A DNA stretch of 33,780 bases from an uncultured Gammaproteobacteria bacterium (GTDB taxonomy: Bacteria; Pseudomonadota; Gammaproteobacteria; Arenicellales; JAANXG01): assembly GCA_947258975.1 (NCBI GenBank), contig CAMYKK010000039.1:1-33780 (forward strand), read 5' to 3'. A program made the translations under genes and the position numbers. Shown piece after piece: positions 631 to 33,557 of the stretch (within the stretch, counting starts at the first letter, position 1; every line of letters starts with the position of its first letter). Under the pieces are notes generated by a model that saw nothing but the letters and a program-made list of their open reading frames with translations, searched no databases and was not told where the DNA came from.

Positions 631-2451
631 TTAGATATTACTTTCATCTCCAACACTCCAACTAAGAGGCGTTCTCGAACCCCTTGGTGATACTCTGATG
701 TATCCTTGCATTTCTTGGTGCAGTGCAGAACAGAAATCGGTGCAATAGAAAGTAAATACACCTTCGAATTGTGGTTTCCAGTACAATGTTTCTGTTTGAC
801 CTGGCATCACAAGAAGTTCAGCATTGTTCATACCCTGTATTGCCAATCCATGCGGCACATCAAAGTCCTGTTCAAGATTGGTTAAGTGAACGTAAACTTC
901 ATCTCCAACTCTAATACCTTCGATATTGTCAGGAGCAAAGTGAGATCTGATAGATGTCATGTATACATGCACAGTGTTTCCTGATCTCTCCACTCTTGTC
1001 TGACCCTCACCTAAGGCTCTGTGTGGATGTTCGTTTTCTTCAATTTTGTAAAACTTCTTACTCTTACTAACTATCCTGTCGGCTGAGATTCCTTGAGCAT
1101 AGTGAGGTTCTCCAACAGTAGGGAAGTCTAATAGCAGTTTCATTTTATCTCCTGATATGTCATATAACTGAGCTGAGTGATTCATTTCAGGCCCTGTAGG
1201 CAAGTAGCGGTCTTTGGTTATCTTATTAAGCGCAACCATGTATTTGCCCTGAGGCTTTTTAGAATCACCACCTGGTATCATAAGGTGACCCACAGAGTAG
1301 TAAGTAGGTACTTTGTCAAGTACTTCCCATGTTCCTACTTTCCACTTAACTATATTAGAAGAGATGAAGAAAGTAGTGTACGCATTGCCTTTGTTATCAA
1401 ATTCTGTATGAAGAGGCCCTAAACCTGGCTTCTTAACAACACCACCAACAACCTTATCATATTTAAGGACAGGTACACTTTCTATAATAGTTTCAAATTC
1501 TTCGTTTTCAATTGCAGAAAGCATGTTGGTAAATGAGTGTGCAGTTAGATCAGCAGAAAGTTTACCACTTCCTATGATGTATTCTCCAGTTGGGTCAACA
1601 TCTACACCGTGAGGTGACTTAGGAGTTGGAAGAAAATACACTAATCCTGGGCAATCTTCAGGAGTCAATACAGGAACTGTCTTAACTTCTGTTGATGTAG
1701 CCATATGCGTCTTTTCATCATAACGGTTAACAAAATGTCTTCCTGGAATATTTTTGGCCTTACCGGCAGCTAAATATTCTTCGGCTTTCTTCCAGTTTAC
1801 TGCAGCTATGAAATCTTTGTCATTTTGAGAAGCATTAACTTCTTTAAGTGTATGACTCTTTTCTGTATTGTAGGTAGTAAAGAAAGTCCATCCGTGAGAT
1901 TTCCCTTTGCCTGAATGGGCAAGATCATAATCAAAGGCAGGAAGTAATATCTGGAAGGCAATATTCATATGTCCTTCGTCATCAACGGTTAGGCATTTTT
2001 GTGGGGTGAAATGCGCCGGCGCCGCGCTCACCGTGACCGCCGCCTCATGATCGCCTTGAATAAGCGTCTCGACGGTTCTTCTTATGTCCTCCGGCCGCCT
2101 CAATGGACTCGTCGGCTCCAACAGTACGGATATGTCGTAGCGTTCGCCATAGTGCCTTTCTGATTCGACCCACGCGTGCTTCCACATGTCGATCGAAGTT
2201 GCGAAATCGCCTGCCAGTTCGGGCGGCCGCATGAATGGCACATCGAGTTTATACTTGGCCGCCTCCGCTGCGATCGCCGCATCGTCCGTGGAAACGATTC
2301 TCCGGTCTATCCATTCGACATTCGCCGCTGCTTGCGCCGCACGGCCGACAAGCGACACCCCGCAGACCTTACACAGATTTTTACGCGGTATGGATTTACT
2401 TCCCCCGCGCGCCGGAACAACCGCCAAGATGGTATGAGTTTTGTACGCCAA
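631..2451 (-). CDS. Chimeric ORF: NeuA-type CMP-acylneuraminate cytidylyltransferase N-terminus joined in frame to NosZ C-terminus
   Basis: One uninterrupted 606-residue frame with a TTG start. Residues 1 to about 158 are the N-terminal part of a CMP-sialic acid synthetase-like enzyme: the nucleotide-binding [20 protein letters not shown] at 54-57 and [14 protein letters not shown] at 110-123. The family is normally about 230 residues, so its C-terminal third is missing. From about residue 162 (MNIAFQ) the protein is nitrous oxide reductase. It has the NosZ propeller histidine contexts [26 protein letters not shown] and GEPHYAQG, then the cupredoxin CuA site HGLAI ... [12 protein letters not shown]. 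The NosZ N-terminus, with its first CuZ histidines, is absent, so neither half is a complete enzyme. The DNA changes from GC-richer to AT-rich at the junction near 1966-1975. The NeuA part follows the Gfo/Idh gene by 18 bp and belongs with the leftward nonulosonic acid locus. This is either an assembly or amplification chimera or a true recombinational fusion; I favour an artefact. Confidence 0.85.
1960..1980. other. Junction between NeuA-like and NosZ-like coding sequence
   Basis: The protein goes from LTVDDEGH (still NeuA-like) to MNIAFQ (NosZ-like) here, without a change of frame. Base composition and codon choice shift at the same point. A CATATG hexamer lies at 1966-1971, exactly at the switch; this could be chance. 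Confidence 0.7.
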
Positions 2452-24813: not shown

Positions 24814-25258
24814 CCGCGCTCAATTCTACATCTAATCACGCATGAGAACCCGACAAGTCAGGGTACCAGACGTATATTAATAGTTCCTTAATGTGACGTG
24901 GAATAAACGCCTGATCTCGCCGGCAATTCACTGCACCAAAATAAGCATCGATGGCTTCAGCAGATATTAAGCATCACTACCCAAACTTGCATGCGCAGGA
25001 TATACAACAATCATCTTGTGTGCGTGGATGGGCCACAAGGTGTCAGAAGGAGGAAGCCGTCAAAAAATCGGACATAGATAATAAAACAGAAAACGATTCT
25101 AGCGAGTCCAATTGCGCTGACTTGTGTGCCCGCGGCACTTGGTGTTATCCGCATCGTTGTGGATAATTCAAGAAACATGCATCCGTTGGAGTTCACGCCT
25201 GCCTGATCAATGGTTCGGTTCCACAGAAACGCCGTCGACTTGTTGCTATATTGCCTGC
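24814..25258. other. Divergent intergenic region, regulator pair and LbtU-like gene
   Basis: No gene recognised in these ~445 bases. It must contain the leftward promoter for the two-component pair and the rightward promoter for the porin gene. The bases just after 24814 are AT-rich (TATATTAATAGTTCC near 24872), but I cannot assign boxes with confidence. Confidence 0.4.
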
Positions 25259-26413
25259 ATGAGCACCCGAGAGACCAATGACCTGTCGATCGACAATAGC
25301 TGGAACCGCGCGACAACACCCCTTCTCACTCTCATCCGCTGTGCAGGGTGGTTACGGCTCCTAAGCGTCGTATTGATTGGTGCCGTATCTATACCCCCTT
25401 CTTTGGGCGCGACCGTTGACGATGAGTCCGTTCGGCTCTACCGCACGCGAGCAGAAAAACGCGAAGTCGGCTTACACACGCCGTTGACACCCTGGCTCAC
25501 TCTTTCCGGATTGGTCGAGTTGGAGTGGAACAAGGATCGTTTCTCCGTGGCTCGCAGTGCCGATGTCACCCGTAAAGAGGATCGCGCGATGAAAGTTCAA
25601 ACGGGGTTGATTGCGACGCCCGCGGAGAACGTACGGGCTGAGTTGATCCTCGAATACGATACCGACACCGATCGAGTCAAAACCGAGGAATTCACCGTGC
25701 GCCTGGAATCAGATCCGTGGGAATTTGTCATCGGCAAGCAGTACCTGCCGTTTGGGGAATATTTTAGCCGCTTCGTTACCGACCCGCTGATCGAGTTTGG
25801 CGAGACCCGTGAGGCGGCAGCGACGCTGACTTATGATTTCAGCGACCGGTTGGATCTCTCGATGTCCGTCTATCATGGCGCGGCCGGCGCGCTCGATCGC
25901 AACAACCGCGGTCTGGATTGGACATTCGCGATGGCGGCGTGGGCACACCGCAATGTTGCGCTGGGCCTCAGCTATCAGACCGATCTGGCCGATGCCGACA
26001 GCCGTTTGCTGGCCGACAACGACGACCGCTTTGTCCGCAAGGTGCCGGGCTTGAGCGGATACATCTTATGGATCGAAGATAACTTCGAGCTGACCTTGGA
26101 AGCGCTCGGTGCGACACGATCCTTTAGTGATTTCGAGGACGATCGCGATCAACCCTGGGCTTGGAACTTGGAACTTGGGCTGTTTCCACATCCTCGCGTC
26201 GACTTGGCGCTGCGTGTCGAAGGCAGTCGCGAGTTGGAAGACGAACCGCACCTACAGTACGGTGTCGCCGCCACCTTCCTCGCGCATCGCTACGTCACCT
26301 TGACGTTCGAGATTCTGCACGGGCGCTTCCATGACGACCTCGCCAGCGACGATGACGGTAATCCACTCGATCATGTCAATCGCTTCGGCGCGCAATTATC
26401 CGTTGCCTTTTAG
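25259..26413 (+). CDS. LbtU-family-like outer-membrane porin
   Basis: About 384 residues from the ATG at 25259; a longer frame adds an unlikely N-terminus. After a long polar leader comes a signal-peptide core LRLLSVVLIGAVSIPPSLGA. The mature protein begins with an acidic, tyrosine-rich stretch and a short helix VRLYRTRAEKREVGL. It then shows alternating amphipathic strands typical of a beta-barrel (LTLSGLVELEW, VRAELILEYD, FTVRLESD, WEFVIGKQYLPFGEYF, LEFGET-like IEFGETREAAATLTYDF) and ends in aromatic Phe (LSVAF), the outer-membrane sorting signal. It resembles the LbtU family of siderophore-linked porins; iron transport is not proved. It lies beside a two-component pair that could regulate it. 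Confidence 0.72.
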   Translation: MSTRETNDLSIDNSWNRATTPLLTLIRCAGWLRLLSVVLIGAVSIPPSLGATVDDESVRLYRTRAEKREVGLHTPLTPWLTLSGLVELEWNKDRFSVARSADVTRKEDRAMKVQTGLIATPAENVRAELILEYDTDTDRVKTEEFTVRLESDPWEFVIGKQYLPFGEYFSRFVTDPLIEFGETREAAATLTYDFSDRLDLSMSVYHGAAGALDRNNRGLDWTFAMAAWAHRNVALGLSYQTDLADADSRLLADNDDRFVRKVPGLSGYILWIEDNFELTLEALGATRSFSDFEDDRDQPWAWNLELGLFPHPRVDLALRVEGSRELEDEPHLQYGVAATFLAHRYVTLTFEILHGRFHDDLASDDDGNPLDHVNRFGAQLSVAF

Positions 26414-26721: not shown

Positions 26722-28359
26722 ATGGGTCCGAAAACCCTAAAGCTGAAAGTGGGTCTTTACTTGGCGATCGCCCTGACGTTGGCCATGGTGGCGTTTGTTG
26801 TGCTGGTAGTGCGGCACCACCGCGCCCACCTGCTGGATGGAGCGATCAGCCACGTCACACAACTTTCCGAAGTGGTCACCAAGAGCACGCGTTTCGCCAT
26901 GCTGCAGAATCAACCGTCCTACGTGCACCGGATCATCGAGGACGTCGGCAGTCAAGAGGGAATCGTTAAGATCAGGATAATGAGCAAGGAAGGAACGATC
27001 ATCCATTCGAGCTTTCCCGAGGAATTTGGGCTGCAGGTGGATACAAAGGCGGAGGCATGCTTTCACTGCCACGAGAGCGAGACGCCACTGGCGCAGATCC
27101 CCAAGCACAAGCGGGCGCGTATTTTTGAGGATTCGAACGGGGCCAGATTGCTGGGCAGCATGGAGGTAATCCGCAACGAACCGTCGTGTTACACGGCCAG
27201 TTGCCACGTGCACAGCCAGGACCAAACGGTGCTTGGGGTGTTAGATATTGTCTATTCCCTGGATGAGATCGACCACAAGGCGTGGGCCGACACCCTCACT
27301 ATCGCCGGTTTTGCCGTCGGATTCGTAATCATCGCCTCCCTTTTCGTGAGTTTTTTTGTGCATCGCATTGTCTATGTACCGTTGCGCGACCTTGAGTCCG
27401 GCGCCGACCGGCTGGCATCGGGCAATCTGCAACAGCCGATTCCGGTGCGCAGCATGGACGAGTTTGGTCAGCTGGCCATCTCTTTTAACGCCATGACGAA
27501 CGCGTTGAGCAAGTCCCAGAACGAATTACAGGAGTGGGGCCAAACCCTGGAAAACAAGGTGCAGGAAAAGACCAAGGAATTGCAGGCCGCCGAGGCCGAA
27601 TCCGTGCATCGAGAAAAACTGGCTTCCGTCGGGCTGCTCGCGGCCGGCATCGCCCATGAGCTGAACAACCCCTTGACCGGTGTCCTTACCTTCTCCACCT
27701 TGGTACGTGAAAAGATGGCCGAAGGAAGCCGGGAAGCGGAAGACCTGGACCTGGTCATCCGTGAAACCAATAGGTGCGCCACCATCATTCGCAGACTGCT
27801 GGATTTCGCGCGCGAGAAGACCCCGGAGAAGAAATTCGCCAACCTCAATACGATCATCGAGGATACGGAGCAGTTCATGCGACGGCCGGCGTATTTTGAT
27901 GATATCGAGATCACCATGGACCTCGATCTAGACCTGCCGCAGATCTGGCTCGACGAGGATTTGATCAAGCAGGTCATCATGAACATTCTCGTCAACGCCC
28001 AACAGGCCATCGAGGGCTCCGGGCGCATTACGATCCGCAGCCGTGTTGTGCCGGAGGCGACGAGCCCCGAGCTGAGTCCCGGACCCATGGTGGAGATATC
28101 GATCACCGACACCGGATGTGGCATCTCGGACAAAGATCAGCAGCGGATTTTCGATCCCTTCTTCACCTCGAAGGGCGTGGGGCAGGGAACGGGGCTGGGA
28201 TTGTCCGTCAGCCATGGTATCGTCAGGGCCCACGGGGGGACGATCGAGGTGGACAGCAAGGTCGGAGAAGGATCCACCTTCCGGATCTACCTGCCCCTTG
28301 AGACGCAAGACACCGAAGTAACGAGTATTGAATATGAGCGGCAAGATACTGGTAGTTGA
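26722..28359 (+). CDS. Membrane sensor histidine kinase with c-type haem-binding periplasmic domain
   Basis: A 545-residue kinase. Membrane segment 1 is at ~11-30 and a periplasmic sensor at ~31-190. The sensor carries two haem-attachment motifs, CFHCH at 113-117 (CXXCH) and CYTASCH at 156-162 (CX4CH), followed by SQDQTVLGVLDIVYSL. Membrane segment 2 is at ~192-213, then HAMP (~214-265), a coiled coil, and HisKA with AAGIAHELNNPLTGVL (His312). The C-terminal HATPase has LVNAQQAIEGSG (N box), ITDTGCGISDKDQQRIFDPFF and GTGLGLSVSHGIV. Its gene overlaps the sigma-54 response regulator by 26 bp, so they are a cognate pair. Redox state, or a gas or small ligand at the haem, would be the signal; this is inference from the motifs. 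Confidence 0.88.
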   Translation: MGPKTLKLKVGLYLAIALTLAMVAFVVLVVRHHRAHLLDGAISHVTQLSEVVTKSTRFAMLQNQPSYVHRIIEDVGSQEGIVKIRIMSKEGTIIHSSFPEEFGLQVDTKAEACFHCHESETPLAQIPKHKRARIFEDSNGARLLGSMEVIRNEPSCYTASCHVHSQDQTVLGVLDIVYSLDEIDHKAWADTLTIAGFAVGFVIIASLFVSFFVHRIVYVPLRDLESGADRLASGNLQQPIPVRSMDEFGQLAISFNAMTNALSKSQNELQEWGQTLENKVQEKTKELQAAEAESVHREKLASVGLLAAGIAHELNNPLTGVLTFSTLVREKMAEGSREAEDLDLVIRETNRCATIIRRLLDFAREKTPEKKFANLNTIIEDTEQFMRRPAYFDDIEITMDLDLDLPQIWLDEDLIKQVIMNILVNAQQAIEGSGRITIRSRVVPEATSPELSPGPMVEISITDTGCGISDKDQQRIFDPFFTSKGVGQGTGLGLSVSHGIVRAHGGTIEVDSKVGEGSTFRIYLPLETQDTEVTSIEYERQDTGS

Positions 28360-29764
28360 CGACGAGGAGATCGTTGTAAGAAGTTGCCTGCGCATTCTCG
28401 GCGAGACTGATTATGAGGTCGACGTGGCGAGAAGTGGTTCGGCGGCGCTGCAGCAAATGGATGAGACGCACTATGACGTGCTCGTTCTTGACATCATGAT
28501 GCCGAAGATGGATGGGCTGGAAGTGCTGCAGAGGGTGAAAGAGGCTCACCCGGACGTCGACGTCATCATGGTCACGGGATTGTCCGAAATCGAAACTGCG
28601 GTGCAATCCATGAAGTTAGGGGCCCTCGACTATCTGCCCAAACCCTTCAACCCGGACGCGCTCACGCTCGTGGTCGAGCGCGCATTCGAGAAGCGGCGTC
28701 TGCAACAGGAAAATCTCAACCTCAAGAGCGAGGTGAGCTCCAAGTATCGTTTCGAAAATATCATCGGCTCCAGCCCGCAGATGCAGAACGTGTACCGTCT
28801 GGTTGCAAAGTGCGCGCCCACCAACAGCACGGTGCTGCTCAGAGGGGAGAGCGGAACCGGCAAGGAGTTGATAGCCCGCGCCATCCACTACAATAGCCTT
28901 CGCAAAGACAAGGCCTTTGTCCCGATCGACTGTGGATCGCTGAGTGAACAACTGCTGGAGAGCGAGTTGTTTGGCCACGTCAAGGGTTCATTCACCGGCG
29001 CGGTGGCAAACAAGCAGGGGCTATTCGAGGTCGCAGATGGGGGCACACTGTTTCTGGATGAAATAGGAAATATTTCCTTGTCCACCCAGGCGAAGCTTCT
29101 GCGCATTATCCAAGAGCGGGAATTCAAAGCGGTGGGGGATACCCGGATTCGGGCCGCCAATATCAGGCTGATCAGCGCCACCAACAGAGATCTCAAGGCG
29201 ATGGTGGCCGAGGGATCATTTCGTGAAGATCTCTACTACCGCCTCAATATCTTTCCCATCGAGATACCACCGTTGCGGAATCGCCGGGAAGACATTCCGG
29301 CCCTTGCATTTCATTTTCTCAAGCTGTTCGGTGAGGAGTTGGGTAAGGAAATGGTTGAATTCTCGGTGGAGGCGATGAATATGCTCGTGAACTACAACTG
29401 GCCGGGGAATGTCAGGGAGCTGGAAAATACGATACACCGCGCAGTGATCCTCGCCACCGACAAGGTCATCCGCCAGGGTCACCTGGTAACGATTATCGAC
29501 ATGGGAGCGGCGCTCGATTCCCATGTGCCGAAGACAAGCGATGAGCTCAAGCAGGTCAAAAAGCTTGCGCGAGAAAAATCGGTGAAAAATATCGAGAAGC
29601 TGTTCGTACTCGAAGCACTGAAAAGAAACGAATGGAACGTTACCAAGAGCGCCGAGGAAACCGGCATGCAGCGTACCAACTTCCAGGCGCTGATGAAGAA
29701 ATACGATATCCGGATAAGAGGGGGGGAGCGGGATTCCAGCGAAGTGGAATCCACCGGTTCCTAG
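28334..29764 (+). CDS. NtrC-family sigma-54-dependent response regulator
   Basis: A 476-residue protein; the ATG at 28334 (MSGKILVVDDEE) is preferred to a TTG two codons earlier. Receiver: Asp53 in VLVLDIMMPKMDG and YLPKPFNP. Central AAA+ domain: Walker A GESGTGKELIARAIH, the sigma-54 contact loop as GSFTGA (canonical GAFTGA with Ala to Ser), Walker B GGTLFLDEIG and sensor RLISATNRDL. The C-terminal Fis-type HTH is EALKRNEWNVTKSAEETGMQRTNFQALMKKY. It overlaps the haem-sensor kinase gene by 26 bp. The only strong -24/-12 promoter seen in the window lies upstream of the cytochrome operon, so that operon is its likely target. Confidence 0.92.
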   Translation: MSGKILVVDDEEIVVRSCLRILGETDYEVDVARSGSAALQQMDETHYDVLVLDIMMPKMDGLEVLQRVKEAHPDVDVIMVTGLSEIETAVQSMKLGALDYLPKPFNPDALTLVVERAFEKRRLQQENLNLKSEVSSKYRFENIIGSSPQMQNVYRLVAKCAPTNSTVLLRGESGTGKELIARAIHYNSLRKDKAFVPIDCGSLSEQLLESELFGHVKGSFTGAVANKQGLFEVADGGTLFLDEIGNISLSTQAKLLRIIQEREFKAVGDTRIRAANIRLISATNRDLKAMVAEGSFREDLYYRLNIFPIEIPPLRNRREDIPALAFHFLKLFGEELGKEMVEFSVEAMNMLVNYNWPGNVRELENTIHRAVILATDKVIRQGHLVTIIDMGAALDSHVPKTSDELKQVKKLAREKSVKNIEKLFVLEALKRNEWNVTKSAEETGMQRTNFQALMKKYDIRIRGGERDSSEVESTGS

Positions 29765-30043: not shown

Positions 30044-30754
30044 TTAATGGATGTGCAGTGGAGATGGCGGCCCACTGATAGGTATCGATAATTTCTTTAC
30101 TTTGTCCTTATCTTGTTTTGCATGCGCCGGCTCTTCTTCCTCTACTTCTTCATATCCAGTAAACATTGCCTTGATGTGCGCCATTGCCGTGTGGCCAAGT
30201 GTCGCTAAATAGACGTGAATAAACAGAAAAAACGTAAAGAAAATGAGTATCAGGACGTGCACGGTATCCACAACCCGCACGCCGCCCAGCATCGTCACGA
30301 TTCCCGAAAAGCGTTCCACGTCCCAAAGCAGAATCCCCGTTGCGATCTGGATGGGAAGGATCAACAGCATGATGATCTGGTAAGAGACACTCTGTAATGG
30401 ATTGAACTTGTTGAAGGCAGTCATGCGGTGCGGATTCCGCGCACCTTTGAAAATACCCCACCCGTAATATTGGGCCTGACGGAAGCTGTCGCGATAGTAC
30501 TTTTTCGGGTTCAACTCGGGTTGATAGATCCTGATGTTGTCCGAAAACAGATAGAGGGACAACCAGACAAGCAAGTTGCCGAGCAGCAAAAATCCAAACC
30601 AATTATGCACGGTGACCGCGGCCTCTAAAGACATGACGTCGAACACCCCAAGGTATCTGATCTGCAGTCCGGTGAGGATCAACGCAATGACACTGCTGGC
30701 GTTGATCCAGTGCCAAATTCTGACTGGAAGTGGATGAATGTATATTTGTTTCAT
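30044..30754 (-). CDS. Membrane di-haem cytochrome b (hydrogenase / thiosulfate reductase cytochrome b type)
   Basis: A 236-residue protein with four predicted membrane helices (~12-32, ~50-70, ~125-145 and ~160-185). Candidate haem ligands are His in VRIWHWINASS, VHNWFGFLLLGN, DTVHVLILI and FLFIHVYLATLGH. This is the pattern of the cytochrome b subunits of NiFe hydrogenases and thiosulfate/tetrathionate-type reductases. The C-terminal tail (EEVEEEEPAHAKQDKDK) is charged and cytoplasmic-looking. It is encoded 13 bp after the nine-haem cytochrome gene and probably exchanges electrons between quinone and that cytochrome. Confidence 0.85.
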   Translation of the reverse strand: MKQIYIHPLPVRIWHWINASSVIALILTGLQIRYLGVFDVMSLEAAVTVHNWFGFLLLGNLLVWLSLYLFSDNIRIYQPELNPKKYYRDSFRQAQYYGWGIFKGARNPHRMTAFNKFNPLQSVSYQIIMLLILPIQIATGILLWDVERFSGIVTMLGGVRVVDTVHVLILIFFTFFLFIHVYLATLGHTAMAHIKAMFTGYEEVEEEEPAHAKQDKDKVKKLSIPISGPPSPLHIH

Positions 30755-30767
30755 CGTTTGTCTCTCC

Positions 30768-32105
30768 TTATTTATCTTTCCTGAAAAATCTGCGCATCGT
30801 CAGGTGCACGATCGGCACCGAGGCACCGCCGACCAAAGCGAGGAGCAAGAGAATATCCAGCAATTTAATTCTTGTGCCACCCAAGGCGTAAAATCCACCC
30901 ACGGAATTTACCGACAGCGCGGAACTCAATACCTCTTTTTCAGCGTCGTAGCTCACCCGTTTACCGTCGGCACGAATCAGAGACACGGTGACGTTCTGAA
31001 ACGGTTCGGCGCCGGCGCGGTGACAGCTCTCGCAGTCCCTGAGTGCTTTCTCCTTCGACGCCATTTGATGGGCCTGTTCTCCGGTCGCGACTTCCATGCG
31101 ACCCCTTAGGGTCACTTCCGCCGCCATACCATCGCGGTTGATTCCGCGCACCAGACTCCATAATTCTTTCGCGTCCAGACCATCCTCGCTCGACTTCCTC
31201 AGACCGGGCAGATCGCCCAACCGCGGCGCGATCTCGTTCTCGGAAAGTGGGCGCTGGGCCACACTGTCGAAAAGCATAAGGTCAACCCGGCGCCGCGCCG
31301 CCGGTGCATGGCAAGCGGGGCACGACACCGCCTGCAGATGCAGTCCGGCATTCGGCAGCCACTCTTTGTGGGCAAGCTCCGCACCTTGGTGACAACCCAG
31401 GCATGCGTCTTTCAACCGGCCTTCGATTGATGCCACGTTGACGTCATGCGCACGATGGCAACCGGAGCAAATGGGCGCTTCGATATGTCCCAGCTTGCTC
31501 CGCGCCTGCCCATGCATGCTCTCGAGATAAGCGTCAAAGATATTTTCATGACAATTCTTGCAAGGGGCGCCGGTTAATGTTTCGTAGGCCGCTTTAGTTT
31601 TGACGTTGTGAGATCCATGACAATCGGTGCATACGGGAGCCGCCAGGTTGCCGGACTTCACCAATGAGGCATGAATACTTCCCTCATATTGAGCGGATTT
31701 GTCCCCGTGGCACTCATGACAAATCTTGGCCAATGCGACGGAGCGCTCGCGTTCGTTGGCGTATGGTTTTTTGTTCGTGCTCAGCGTGTGCGTGTTGAGG
31801 TTGATGTCCCGATGACAGTTCGTGCAACCGATCCAGTTATGCACTGACTTTGCGAACATCTCACCCGGTACGTGAAGGGGAAGCGTTTCACCGTTTTCCA
31901 GGGTCGTCGACAACCGCTCGAAGGAGTGGCATTTCAGGCACTCCCCGTCATCCGCCGATAGCGTGTCATCAGGAACGCTCGCCATGGCGGTGGATGCGAA
32001 CACTAAAAAAGCCCAAGAACTAAGAAAGGTTGCCACCGCCGGTCGCCAAAAATGCGTATGTGCTCCACTCGTTGGGTTTTTTCGTGTTCTGCTGGAAATT
32101 GTCAT
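30768..32105 (-). CDS. Periplasmic, membrane-anchored nine-haem cytochrome c
   Basis: A 445-residue protein with a signal peptide (FLSSWAFLVFASTAMA, cleavage near residue 43) and nine CXXCH motifs: CLKCH, CTNCH, CHECH, CTDCH, CKNCH, CSGCH, CLGCH, CPACH and CESCH. Most lie between residues 56 and 280 and the last at about 360. A C-terminal membrane segment (KLLDILLLLALVGGASVPIVHLTM) anchors it at the periplasmic face. Extra His residues (SIHASLV, ESMHGQA) suggest bis-His ligation of some haems. It is cotranscribed with cytochrome b and two receiver proteins. The likely job is electron transfer between the quinone pool (through cytochrome b) and a periplasmic or outer-membrane partner not present here. 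Confidence 0.92.
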   Translation of the reverse strand: MTISSRTRKNPTSGAHTHFWRPAVATFLSSWAFLVFASTAMASVPDDTLSADDGECLKCHSFERLSTTLENGETLPLHVPGEMFAKSVHNWIGCTNCHRDINLNTHTLSTNKKPYANERERSVALAKICHECHGDKSAQYEGSIHASLVKSGNLAAPVCTDCHGSHNVKTKAAYETLTGAPCKNCHENIFDAYLESMHGQARSKLGHIEAPICSGCHRAHDVNVASIEGRLKDACLGCHQGAELAHKEWLPNAGLHLQAVSCPACHAPAARRRVDLMLFDSVAQRPLSENEIAPRLGDLPGLRKSSEDGLDAKELWSLVRGINRDGMAAEVTLRGRMEVATGEQAHQMASKEKALRDCESCHRAGAEPFQNVTVSLIRADGKRVSYDAEKEVLSSALSVNSVGGFYALGGTRIKLLDILLLLALVGGASVPIVHLTMRRFFRKDK

Positions 32106-32224: not shown

Positions 32225-32797
32225 CTACTTTTCCGACACCGATCGTCCGGTCAGCGCCTGAAAGCCGTACCATGCGAGCATGCCGAGACCGATGAACGGA
32301 AATGCCATGAAATAGGCCAGCCCGATGAACGGCGACGCGAAGAACAGGCCGATGTTCTTCAGGGTACGGCCGATGCTTCTCGGTGCGCTTGCCTCTTCTG
32401 CGACTTCGGGAACCTTTTCTTCGATAATTGATTTCCGGGTGATCCTTTCCATCACCTCCTCTAACGCCCCCGGTAAGAGAGGTTTGTGAAGAAAGTCCGC
32501 GACTCCCACCGCTGCTGCCGCGGCCTCGTTGGCAGGTGTGCCGTAACCAGTCACGACTACCACCGGCGTCCAAGGACTCTTTGCCTTGATACGCTGTGCA
32601 ACCTCAATACCGTCCATACCCGGCATCTTTATATCGGTGAAGACGACATCATGTTTTCCACCACTGAACTTATTGAGCGCTTCGTGGCCGTTCATTGCGG
32701 TACTAACGGCATATCCCTTTTCCGAGAGCACCCGGTCGAAACTCTGGCCAACCACCGCGTCATCGTCTACTACCAGAACTTTTGCTAAGGCTTGCAT
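32225..32797 (-). CDS. Receiver-domain protein with C-terminal hydrophobic (membrane-like) segments
   Basis: A 190-residue protein from the ATG at 32797, preceded by GGAGG at good spacing; an upstream start is less likely. The receiver domain (~5-125) has DDD at 11-13, phospho-acceptor Asp55 in VVFTDIKMPGMDG and the conserved Lys in FLHKPLLPG. After a short acidic linker (IIEEKVPEVAEEASAP) come two hydrophobic segments, FFASPFIGLAYFMAF and PFIGLGMLAWYGFQAL (~145-185), ending GRSVSEK. No DNA-binding or enzymatic output domain is present. Receivers with a membrane tail are rare, and I do not recognise a named family. It sits in the operon with the cytochromes, 119 bp upstream of the nine-haem gene, and may tether or modulate the cytochrome complex. 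Confidence 0.8.
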   Translation of the reverse strand: MQALAKVLVVDDDAVVGQSFDRVLSEKGYAVSTAMNGHEALNKFSGGKHDVVFTDIKMPGMDGIEVAQRIKAKSPWTPVVVVTGYGTPANEAAAAAVGVADFLHKPLLPGALEEVMERITRKSIIEEKVPEVAEEASAPRSIGRTLKNIGLFFASPFIGLAYFMAFPFIGLGMLAWYGFQALTGRSVSEK

Positions 32798-32829: not shown

Positions 32830-33276
32830 CTAGTTTTCCCAAGGATATCGATACTTAAAACTTTCGCCGCCGTCGTAACCTGCTCGACAAGTTTGCAGGC
32901 TCCACTTCTTCTGCAGCATCGCTGCGTTCGCGGCTTTGATGACATCATCCGGGCCGACCGGCTTGGCGAGGTAATCGTAGGCGCCGAGCCGAACCGCCTC
33001 TTTGGCGGTTTCGATGGACGGGTAACCGGTAATGATGACCACCTGACTTTCGGGCCATCTCTCCTTAATGATCTTGAGCACCGACATGCCGTCCAAATCC
33101 GGCATGCGCAGATCGAGCAGTATCACGTCGAACGGTTGGCGCTCCATTGCGCGCAACGCCTCTTGTCCGTTCCAGGCCGCTTCCACATGGCAGTGCAGGC
33201 CTGCCAAGGTCCTGAGATGACTCATGCGTACCACTTCTTCGTCATCAACAATGAGGATGTTCGTTGTGTCGTACAT
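32830..33276 (-). CDS. Stand-alone receiver-domain response regulator
   Basis: A 148-residue protein; the ATG at 33276 follows GGAGG by five bases, which decides the start. It has NILIVDDEEVVRMSHL, phospho-acceptor Asp55 in VILLDLRMPDLDG, VIITGYPSIETAKEAVRLGAYDYLAKPVGPDDV and a short C-terminal tail YRYPWEN. There is no output domain, so it may serve as a phosphate sink, a CheY-like interaction partner, or a partner of the membrane-tailed receiver (32 bp downstream). It is the first gene of the operon behind the sigma-54 promoter. Confidence 0.9.
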   Translation of the reverse strand: MYDTTNILIVDDEEVVRMSHLRTLAGLHCHVEAAWNGQEALRAMERQPFDVILLDLRMPDLDGMSVLKIIKERWPESQVVIITGYPSIETAKEAVRLGAYDYLAKPVGPDDVIKAANAAMLQKKWSLQTCRAGYDGGESFKYRYPWEN

Positions 33277-33332
33277 GCAGACCTCCAAACCTTTGCCCAA
33301 TCGAATTATGTCCACTCTTGGCTAAGGTAGGT

Positions 33333-33348
33333 TGCAACCATCGTGCCA
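33333..33348 (-). promoter_or_regulatory. Consensus sigma-54 (-24/-12) promoter of the cytochrome operon
   Basis: On the minus strand TGGCACG-ATGG-TTGCA matches the sigma-54 consensus TGGCACG-N4-TTGC(A/T) at every conserved base. The spacing of GG and GC is correct. The expected start near 33323 gives a leader of about 47 nt to the ATG at 33276. A much weaker look-alike (TGTCACG-AACC-TTGAT) lies near 32174-32190. Confidence 0.85.
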
Positions 33349-33536: not shown

Positions 33537-33557
33537 ATGTACGTTTCCAATGTACAT
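33537..33557. repeat. Inverted repeat ATGTAC-N9-GTACAT
   Basis: A 6-bp dyad upstream of the cytochrome operon promoter, centre near 33547; possible site for a dimeric regulator. Confidence 0.4.

Follow-up and report, generated by a model that had tools for sequence, protein, structure and literature searches.

Response regulators are chiefly known as controllers of transcription or of other soluble targets. What, then, could be the target of a response regulator that ends in a hydrophobic tail and is encoded just ahead of two cytochrome genes? The question is raised by a gene in the window, a stretch of 33,780 nucleotides (contig CAMYKK010000039.1, forward strand) from an uncultured gammaproteobacterium of the order Arenicellales. 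An open reading frame exactly spans positions 32225–32797 on the minus strand and encodes a protein of 190 amino acids plus stop, here called the receiver-module protein. AGGAGG precedes its ATG in the sequence.

The N-terminal part of the protein (residues 7–115; 32453–32779, minus strand) is a receiver domain (Pfam PF00072, Response_reg, E = 5.5e-28). An alignment of 54 receiver-module proteins, the window's included, shows no variation at D55, T83, and K105 and at least 90% conservation at D11, D12, and D13, in agreement with a sequence-only reading of this DNA which held that all phosphoryl-transfer residues are kept. By its domain and its acidic pair, phospho-Asp, Thr/Ser, and Lys, the protein is a two-component response regulator and is predicted to accept phosphate. 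The genome holds 38 other receiver matches, the best two being the neighbouring NtrC-type regulator, whose receiver is 38% identical and the closest other one in the genome, and the neighbouring single-domain receiver REC1. Response_reg was the only Pfam match in the receiver-module protein; the scan detected no AAA+ domain, no HTH, and nothing on the tail. With no Pfam domain past the receiver and a hydrophobic tail, the protein falls outside the DNA-binding response regulators. The receiver is followed by a variable linker (residues 121–144; 32366–32437, minus strand), in which the mean frequency of the majority residue is 0.36 vs 0.77 in the receiver.

The core of the tail, about 31 residues long (149–179), contains zero charged residues, is interrupted by two prolines (P156 and P167), and is flanked by charges at K147 before it and R185 after it. 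It reads PFhGLxY-x4-PFhGLG with Lys/Arg flanks, the pattern that defines what we name here the PFxGL membrane module (residues 147–182; 32252–32359, minus strand). P156, G159, L160, P167, and G170 of the module are invariant in the 54 aligned rows. Tail identity is 73–83% across six relatives found in the search of the order, five of the same genus and one of another family. Over up to 21 pairs, mean dN/dS is 0.061 in the module, 0.076 in the receiver, and 0.184 in the linker, ratios that are rough since mean dS (0.95–1.27) is near saturation. Because of the identity in the six relatives and the low dN/dS relative to the linker, the tail is conserved beyond chance. The same low dN/dS, the conserved module, and its invariant columns rule out assignment of the protein to the single-domain response regulators. 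In the proteins scanned against Pfam, NCBIfam, and PHROGs, no family matched the module significantly.

AlphaFold2, run with 54 sequences, modelled the receiver confidently, the linker with pLDDT below 50 at residues 128–142, and the tail as a single helix (residues 144–188) with mean pLDDT rising from 74 (151–160) through 88 (161–170) to 94 (171–180). A fold search of the PDB with the full model placed receivers and receiver-containing proteins among the 50 matches listed. A soluble output domain at the C-terminus was rejected from the Pfam scan, the conservation in the 54 rows, and the predicted structure. The sequence-only reading had described two hydrophobic segments in place of an output domain; the hydrophobic tail in that place is borne out, but it is not clearly two segments, being one uncharged stretch and one predicted helix. 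Two outcomes named there as speaking against a membrane tail did not appear, namely a globular tail homologue among the aligned relatives and a soluble fold in the AlphaFold2 prediction.

The module is not confined to this protein. An exact IUPAC pattern back-translated from the core and applied to contigs of one genome per species returned 102 stretches, of which at least one (L049) is a chance match; the titles of 80 of them are mostly of Proteobacteria (Beta, Alpha, and Gamma), with two Nitrospirae. With an HMM built from the cores to count module units, 117 distinct module proteins were obtained, a set that covers the window and two viral-collection contigs. By blastp, 62 of them have a receiver, 47 have none, and 8 are cut at the locus start. 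Small receiver-free module proteins thus occur besides the receiver-module proteins. Under a stricter core rule, receiver proteins carry one unit (24 proteins), two (34), or three (4), and the HMM detects four in L068. The four-unit protein (L068:900–2099, minus strand) lies on a contig titled Patescibacteria from a genome of about 0.7 Mb, an odd host that perhaps reflects transfer or binning. The two viral-collection contigs (L043:4259–4708 and L044:4519–4923, plus strand) each encode a receiver-free protein with two modules, which in L043 adjoins an NAD synthase gene.

The 27-residue core is free of charged residues in 147 of 154 modules of the three main classes, and the linkers between modules are positive in 73 of 74. 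In two-unit receiver proteins, the mean K/R content exceeds that of D/E in the linkers (4.4 vs 0.6), the N flanks (2.0 vs 0.8), and the C flanks (3.0 vs 0.6). By the positive-inside rule, such flanks fit a unit with both ends in the cytoplasm, that is, a short hairpin or re-entrant unit. AlphaFold2 gave one long helix per unit rather than a hairpin, with a pTM of 0.30 for the tandem form. An alternative is a general membrane-inserting or membrane-organising element that unrelated proteins use and that has no specific tie to cytochromes; it would suit the positive charges that flank the units and fill their linkers, the repeated units, and the receiver-free copies in many contexts, two viral-collection contigs among them. 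We regard this as very unlikely, given the operon position that recurs in two phyla, the fusion to a cytochrome, and the co-occurrence within the order, all described below.

The receiver-module gene sits in a block of genes. Just upstream lies REC1 (32830–33279, minus strand; 149 aa), a single-domain receiver in which D13, D56, T84, and K106 are invariant in 48 rows. Downstream on the same strand follow a multihaem cytochrome c, hereafter MHC (30768–32105; 445 aa), which has a C-terminal hydrophobic segment, matches Cytochrome_C7 and other Pfam families, and has CxxCH motifs that are 88–100% conserved in 48 rows; and a cytochrome b561-type membrane subunit, CYTB (30044–30754; 236 aa; Ni_hydr_CYTB, E = 9.6e-28), with H15, H50, H166, and H180 invariant in 43 rows. 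Convergent with these genes, Pfam identifies a histidine kinase (HK) with a HAMP domain (26722–28359, plus strand) and an NtrC-type sigma-54 response regulator composed of receiver, AAA+, and Fis-type HTH (28328–29764, plus strand). The kinase contains the motifs C113-x2-C116-H117 and C156-x4-C161-H162, in which the four cysteines and H162 are invariant across 24 kinase rows and H117 shows 96% conservation; from these CxxCH-type motifs, we infer that it binds haem. A protein that by eye resembles an outer-membrane beta protein (25124–26413, plus strand; no Pfam match) is encoded upstream of the kinase and is a possible part of the block. It is found beside the kinase in L036, L038, L039, and L040; the stretches of L037 and L041 stop no more than 1.4 kb from the kinase, and the homologue is thus seen in four of the six relatives L036–L041.

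Loci labelled Alpha-, Beta-, and Gammaproteobacteria share this arrangement, with REC1, receiver-module, MHC, and CYTB in that order and the kinase and NtrC-type regulator genes convergent to them; the contigs of two Ramlibacter isolates (L055 and L083) carry the first four genes. MHC lies directly downstream on the same strand of 34 of the 43 receiver-module genes with at least 1.5 kb of downstream sequence, both MHC and CYTB follow in 26 of the 33 with at least 3 kb, and REC1 is directly upstream in 36 of the 48 with enough upstream DNA. These neighbour counts are drawn from 55 receiver-module genes, and the receiver regex misses some (for example L072, L124, L134, and L138). A recount by an ORF rule placed an ORF with at least four CxxCH within 1.2 kb downstream of 35 of 49 receiver-module genes, and 4 of the 14 exceptions (L046, L109, L119, and L122) do have an MHC by tblastn. 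Nine of the 43 genes are without an MHC directly downstream. In L063, MHC and CYTB are convergent; the genes of L104 and L116 and both of those in L145 lie near a gene with five CxxCH; and in L098, L099, L100, and L126 no multihaem ORF was found near the receiver-module gene in the DNA stretch examined. The receiver-module protein, MHC, and CYTB are likely encoded in one operon. The conserved gene order also fits plain co-regulation.

How the block may be switched on is suggested by the DNA ahead of REC1. A predicted sigma-54 promoter (33333–33348, minus strand) is an exact match to TGGCACG-N4-TTGCA. By chance, a single match with up to one mismatch is not rare (34 of 100 shuffles). Such a site occurs within 100 bp of REC1 in 37 of 48 distinct upstream regions vs 11 of 4800 shuffles. 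In several of the 11 regions that miss it, a receiver-free module gene precedes REC1 (L045, L048, L076, L101, L104, and L116). Farther upstream, a palindrome (33537–33557) with a TGTACA-N7-TGTACA-like pattern is a candidate upstream activator site; with up to two mismatches, the pattern is present in 16 of 48 regions vs 22 of 2400 shuffles, a comparison in which the pattern was taken from the same data. The block's NtrC-type regulator probably drives the operon of REC1, receiver-module, MHC, and CYTB. With this regulator and a conserved sigma-54 promoter in the block, control at the DNA therefore runs beside whatever the receiver-module protein does, and the earlier proposal that phosphorylation acts on the membrane complex instead of on DNA is wrong in its "instead".

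The same layout raises a different possibility, in which the module merely holds the receiver near the kinase as a membrane-tethered phosphate sink or connector that competes with the NtrC-type regulator, and the cytochromes are co-regulated cargo. One kinase shares the block with three receivers that are competent by their residues, within the genome these receivers match one another best, and the sigma-54 promoter places two of them under their own pathway, which amounts to a feedback layout. A receiver tether leaves unexplained why a receiver-free module lies beside, or is fused to, cytochromes in Nitrospirota (see below), and we consider a phosphate sink unlikely, though not strongly so.

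The receiver-module proteins were gathered through the module pattern and not through cytochromes; a count within the order and a search of Nitrospirota provide less biased tests of the link. Of 109 genomes searched in the order, 7 contain the module, and those 7 are also the ones in which MHC was detected. At wider ranges, a search with the tail across 274 genomes of the class gave no convincing match beyond the window's own genome, the next best one (E = 6.4e-4) containing a stop, and a tail-profile search of 398 genomes of the phylum returned a single weak other match (E = 1.9e-4). The window's MHC as a query found four others in 299 genomes of the phylum, with partial and weak matches of 27–41% identity.

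The Nitrospirota locus L106 encodes a module protein of roughly 135 residues that lacks a receiver; it has matches in 39 of 245 genomes of the phylum, its own included, and the search yielded loci for 30 of the 39. An HMM built without the seeds L062, L087, L106, and L144 recovers the Nitrospirota proteins, the best 40 matches having E values from 2.5e-12 to 0.0032. These receiver-free proteins are likely, as judged from their sequences, homologous to the PFxGL module. In 18 of 29 Nitrospirota module loci, a gene with at least four CxxCH follows on the same strand no more than 700 bp downstream; eight of these genes encode a large cytochrome with 12 or 13 CxxCH, one has 9, and nine have 4 or 5. 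The 29 loci are those tested of 34 given, L183, L185, L186, L187, and L190 having been dropped for lack of a module at the threshold; L167 and L172 were counted despite less than 200 bp of downstream sequence, and the set includes L154, a MAG titled only "bacterium". L174 is a further module–cytochrome case beyond the 18, with a cytochrome frame that overlaps by more than 150 bp. Five genomes (L191–L195) encode fusions in which a 13-CxxCH cytochrome is joined to the module protein's N-terminal part and core, with a changed second PFxGL half in the sequence. Six putative fusions were examined; L196 was not shown to be one, and L186 is the same gene as in L192.

Two Nitrospirota loci display a fuller arrangement. 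In L197, the module gene is followed by MHC, b561, a dCache kinase that contains CxxCH, and then a regulator of NarL type by eye. In L206, two module genes precede those for a four-CxxCH protein, an Fe-S protein, NrfD, MHC, and b561, after which comes the first part of a Cache sensor resembling the one in the L197 kinase. The Fe-S protein of L206 is about 41% identical to the Fe-S proteins of the Proteobacterial L116 and L145, and its NrfD and the L116 one share 39% identity over 148 residues. In L116 and L145, the receiver-module genes lie beside this second kind of complex, the multihaem-FeS-NrfD type. A BlaR1/M56-type peptidase gene and a gene for a protein of 175–184 aa precede the module genes in both Nitrospirota loci (L206:7178–8089, minus strand; L197:1061–2606, plus strand). 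A second receiver protein is encoded in L145 (1509–2723, minus strand) and L116 (4574–5914, plus strand), beside the genes for the 5-CxxCH cytochrome and the Fe-S protein and, in L116, with NrfD as well. Its N-terminal segment is hydrophobic by eye and is followed by a receiver and then a domain like glycine-cleavage H (REC-GCV_H).

If the module were a small structural subunit or assembly factor of b561/NrfD-type complexes, the receiver controlling assembly or clustering and not turnover, one would also expect the receiver-free module proteins and module–cytochrome fusions of Nitrospirota, as well as the position of receiver-module genes in L116 and L145 close to genes for a 5-CxxCH cytochrome and an Fe-S protein (and for NrfD in L116). 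We hold this to be distinctly unlikely: the module has no family match, and a multihaem ORF is missing from the neighbourhood of most receiver-free module proteins tested. When 1.5 kb was available on both sides, an ORF with at least four CxxCH was present within 3 kb in only 7 of 25 such proteins and was found in none of the other 18.

The module most likely belongs to a membrane redox complex, and the receiver would put it under the control of the kinase. Gene context points this way; against it stand the 18 of 25 receiver-free module proteins with no multihaem ORF within 3 kb, the nine of 43 receiver-module genes with no MHC directly downstream, and the one long helix per module drawn by AlphaFold2. 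Because the Nitrospirota module adjoins or is fused to a multihaem cytochrome, a respiratory complex may be a direct target of phosphorylation in addition to genes. To this extent, the sequence-only reading, which had proposed phosphorylation control on a membrane cytochrome complex, is partly upheld: the tail goes with a redox complex by context (34 of 43 genes, the same 7 of 109 genomes, and the Nitrospirota adjacencies and fusions), and the exclusion of DNA control falls away.

We therefore favour, at a probability of roughly one half, a response regulator that has a membrane module as its output in place of a DNA-binding domain, docks through it on the cytochrome b/MHC complex and, once phosphorylated by the kinase, alters electron flow or assembly. 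The kinase, with its haem motifs, would sense redox state on the periplasmic side and phosphorylate the NtrC-type regulator, switching on the operon. It would also phosphorylate both receivers that the operon encodes, REC1 and the receiver-module protein. The module would insert in the membrane and dock on the cytochrome b/MHC complex, at the place where the receiver-free protein sits in Nitrospirota, and phosphorylation of the receiver would then alter electron flow through the complex or its assembly. A broader version is more tentative and, in our estimate, somewhat short of even odds: PFxGL may be a small subunit of quinone-linked redox complexes (MHC-b561 and multihaem-FeS-NrfD) common to Nitrospirota and Proteobacteria, with the receiver fusion in Proteobacteria providing a phosphorylation switch on electron flow parallel to the sigma-54 control. 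If true, a receiver joined to a piece that elsewhere travels with, or is fused to, a respiratory cytochrome would let phosphorylation switch an electron-transport complex directly, and PFxGL offers a defined module with which this can be tested.

Several known systems share some of these features. Like stand-alone receivers, the receiver-module protein has complete phosphoryl-transfer residues and no DNA-binding or enzymatic domain; unlike them, it has a conserved hydrophobic module of 36 residues, REC1 next door being the single-domain one. It resembles NtrC-type regulators in its receiver and differs from them in having neither AAA+ nor HTH. The Tmc and Hmc redox complexes of sulfate reducers comprise a multihaem cytochrome, Fe-S, and membrane subunits, and stand-alone response regulators are encoded nearby; we know of no membrane module on those receivers. 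The receiver followed by a membrane-type segment, with a predicted membrane location, places the protein among membrane-anchored response regulators, a kind already known, with a membrane module that is uncatalogued in the three family collections scanned. The closest likeness, drawn from their description, is to the MetOD3 response regulators of methanogens, which have a membrane-anchored output domain (PMC5847659). They are archaeal, with very few members in one or two genera, and the portion of that report available to us describes no cytochrome link (PMC5847659), unlike the receiver-module gene beside MHC and CYTB. No description of the PFxGL module or of its pairing with cytochromes was found in the parts at hand of the literature on membrane response regulators and such gene clusters, including the available portion of PMC3333781, and absence from print is not claimed.

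Elsewhere in the window, a single open reading frame (631–2451, minus strand) joins an N-terminal cytidylyltransferase part (CTP_transf_3) to a C-terminal nitrous oxide reductase part (nos_propeller), either a real fusion or an assembly chimera.
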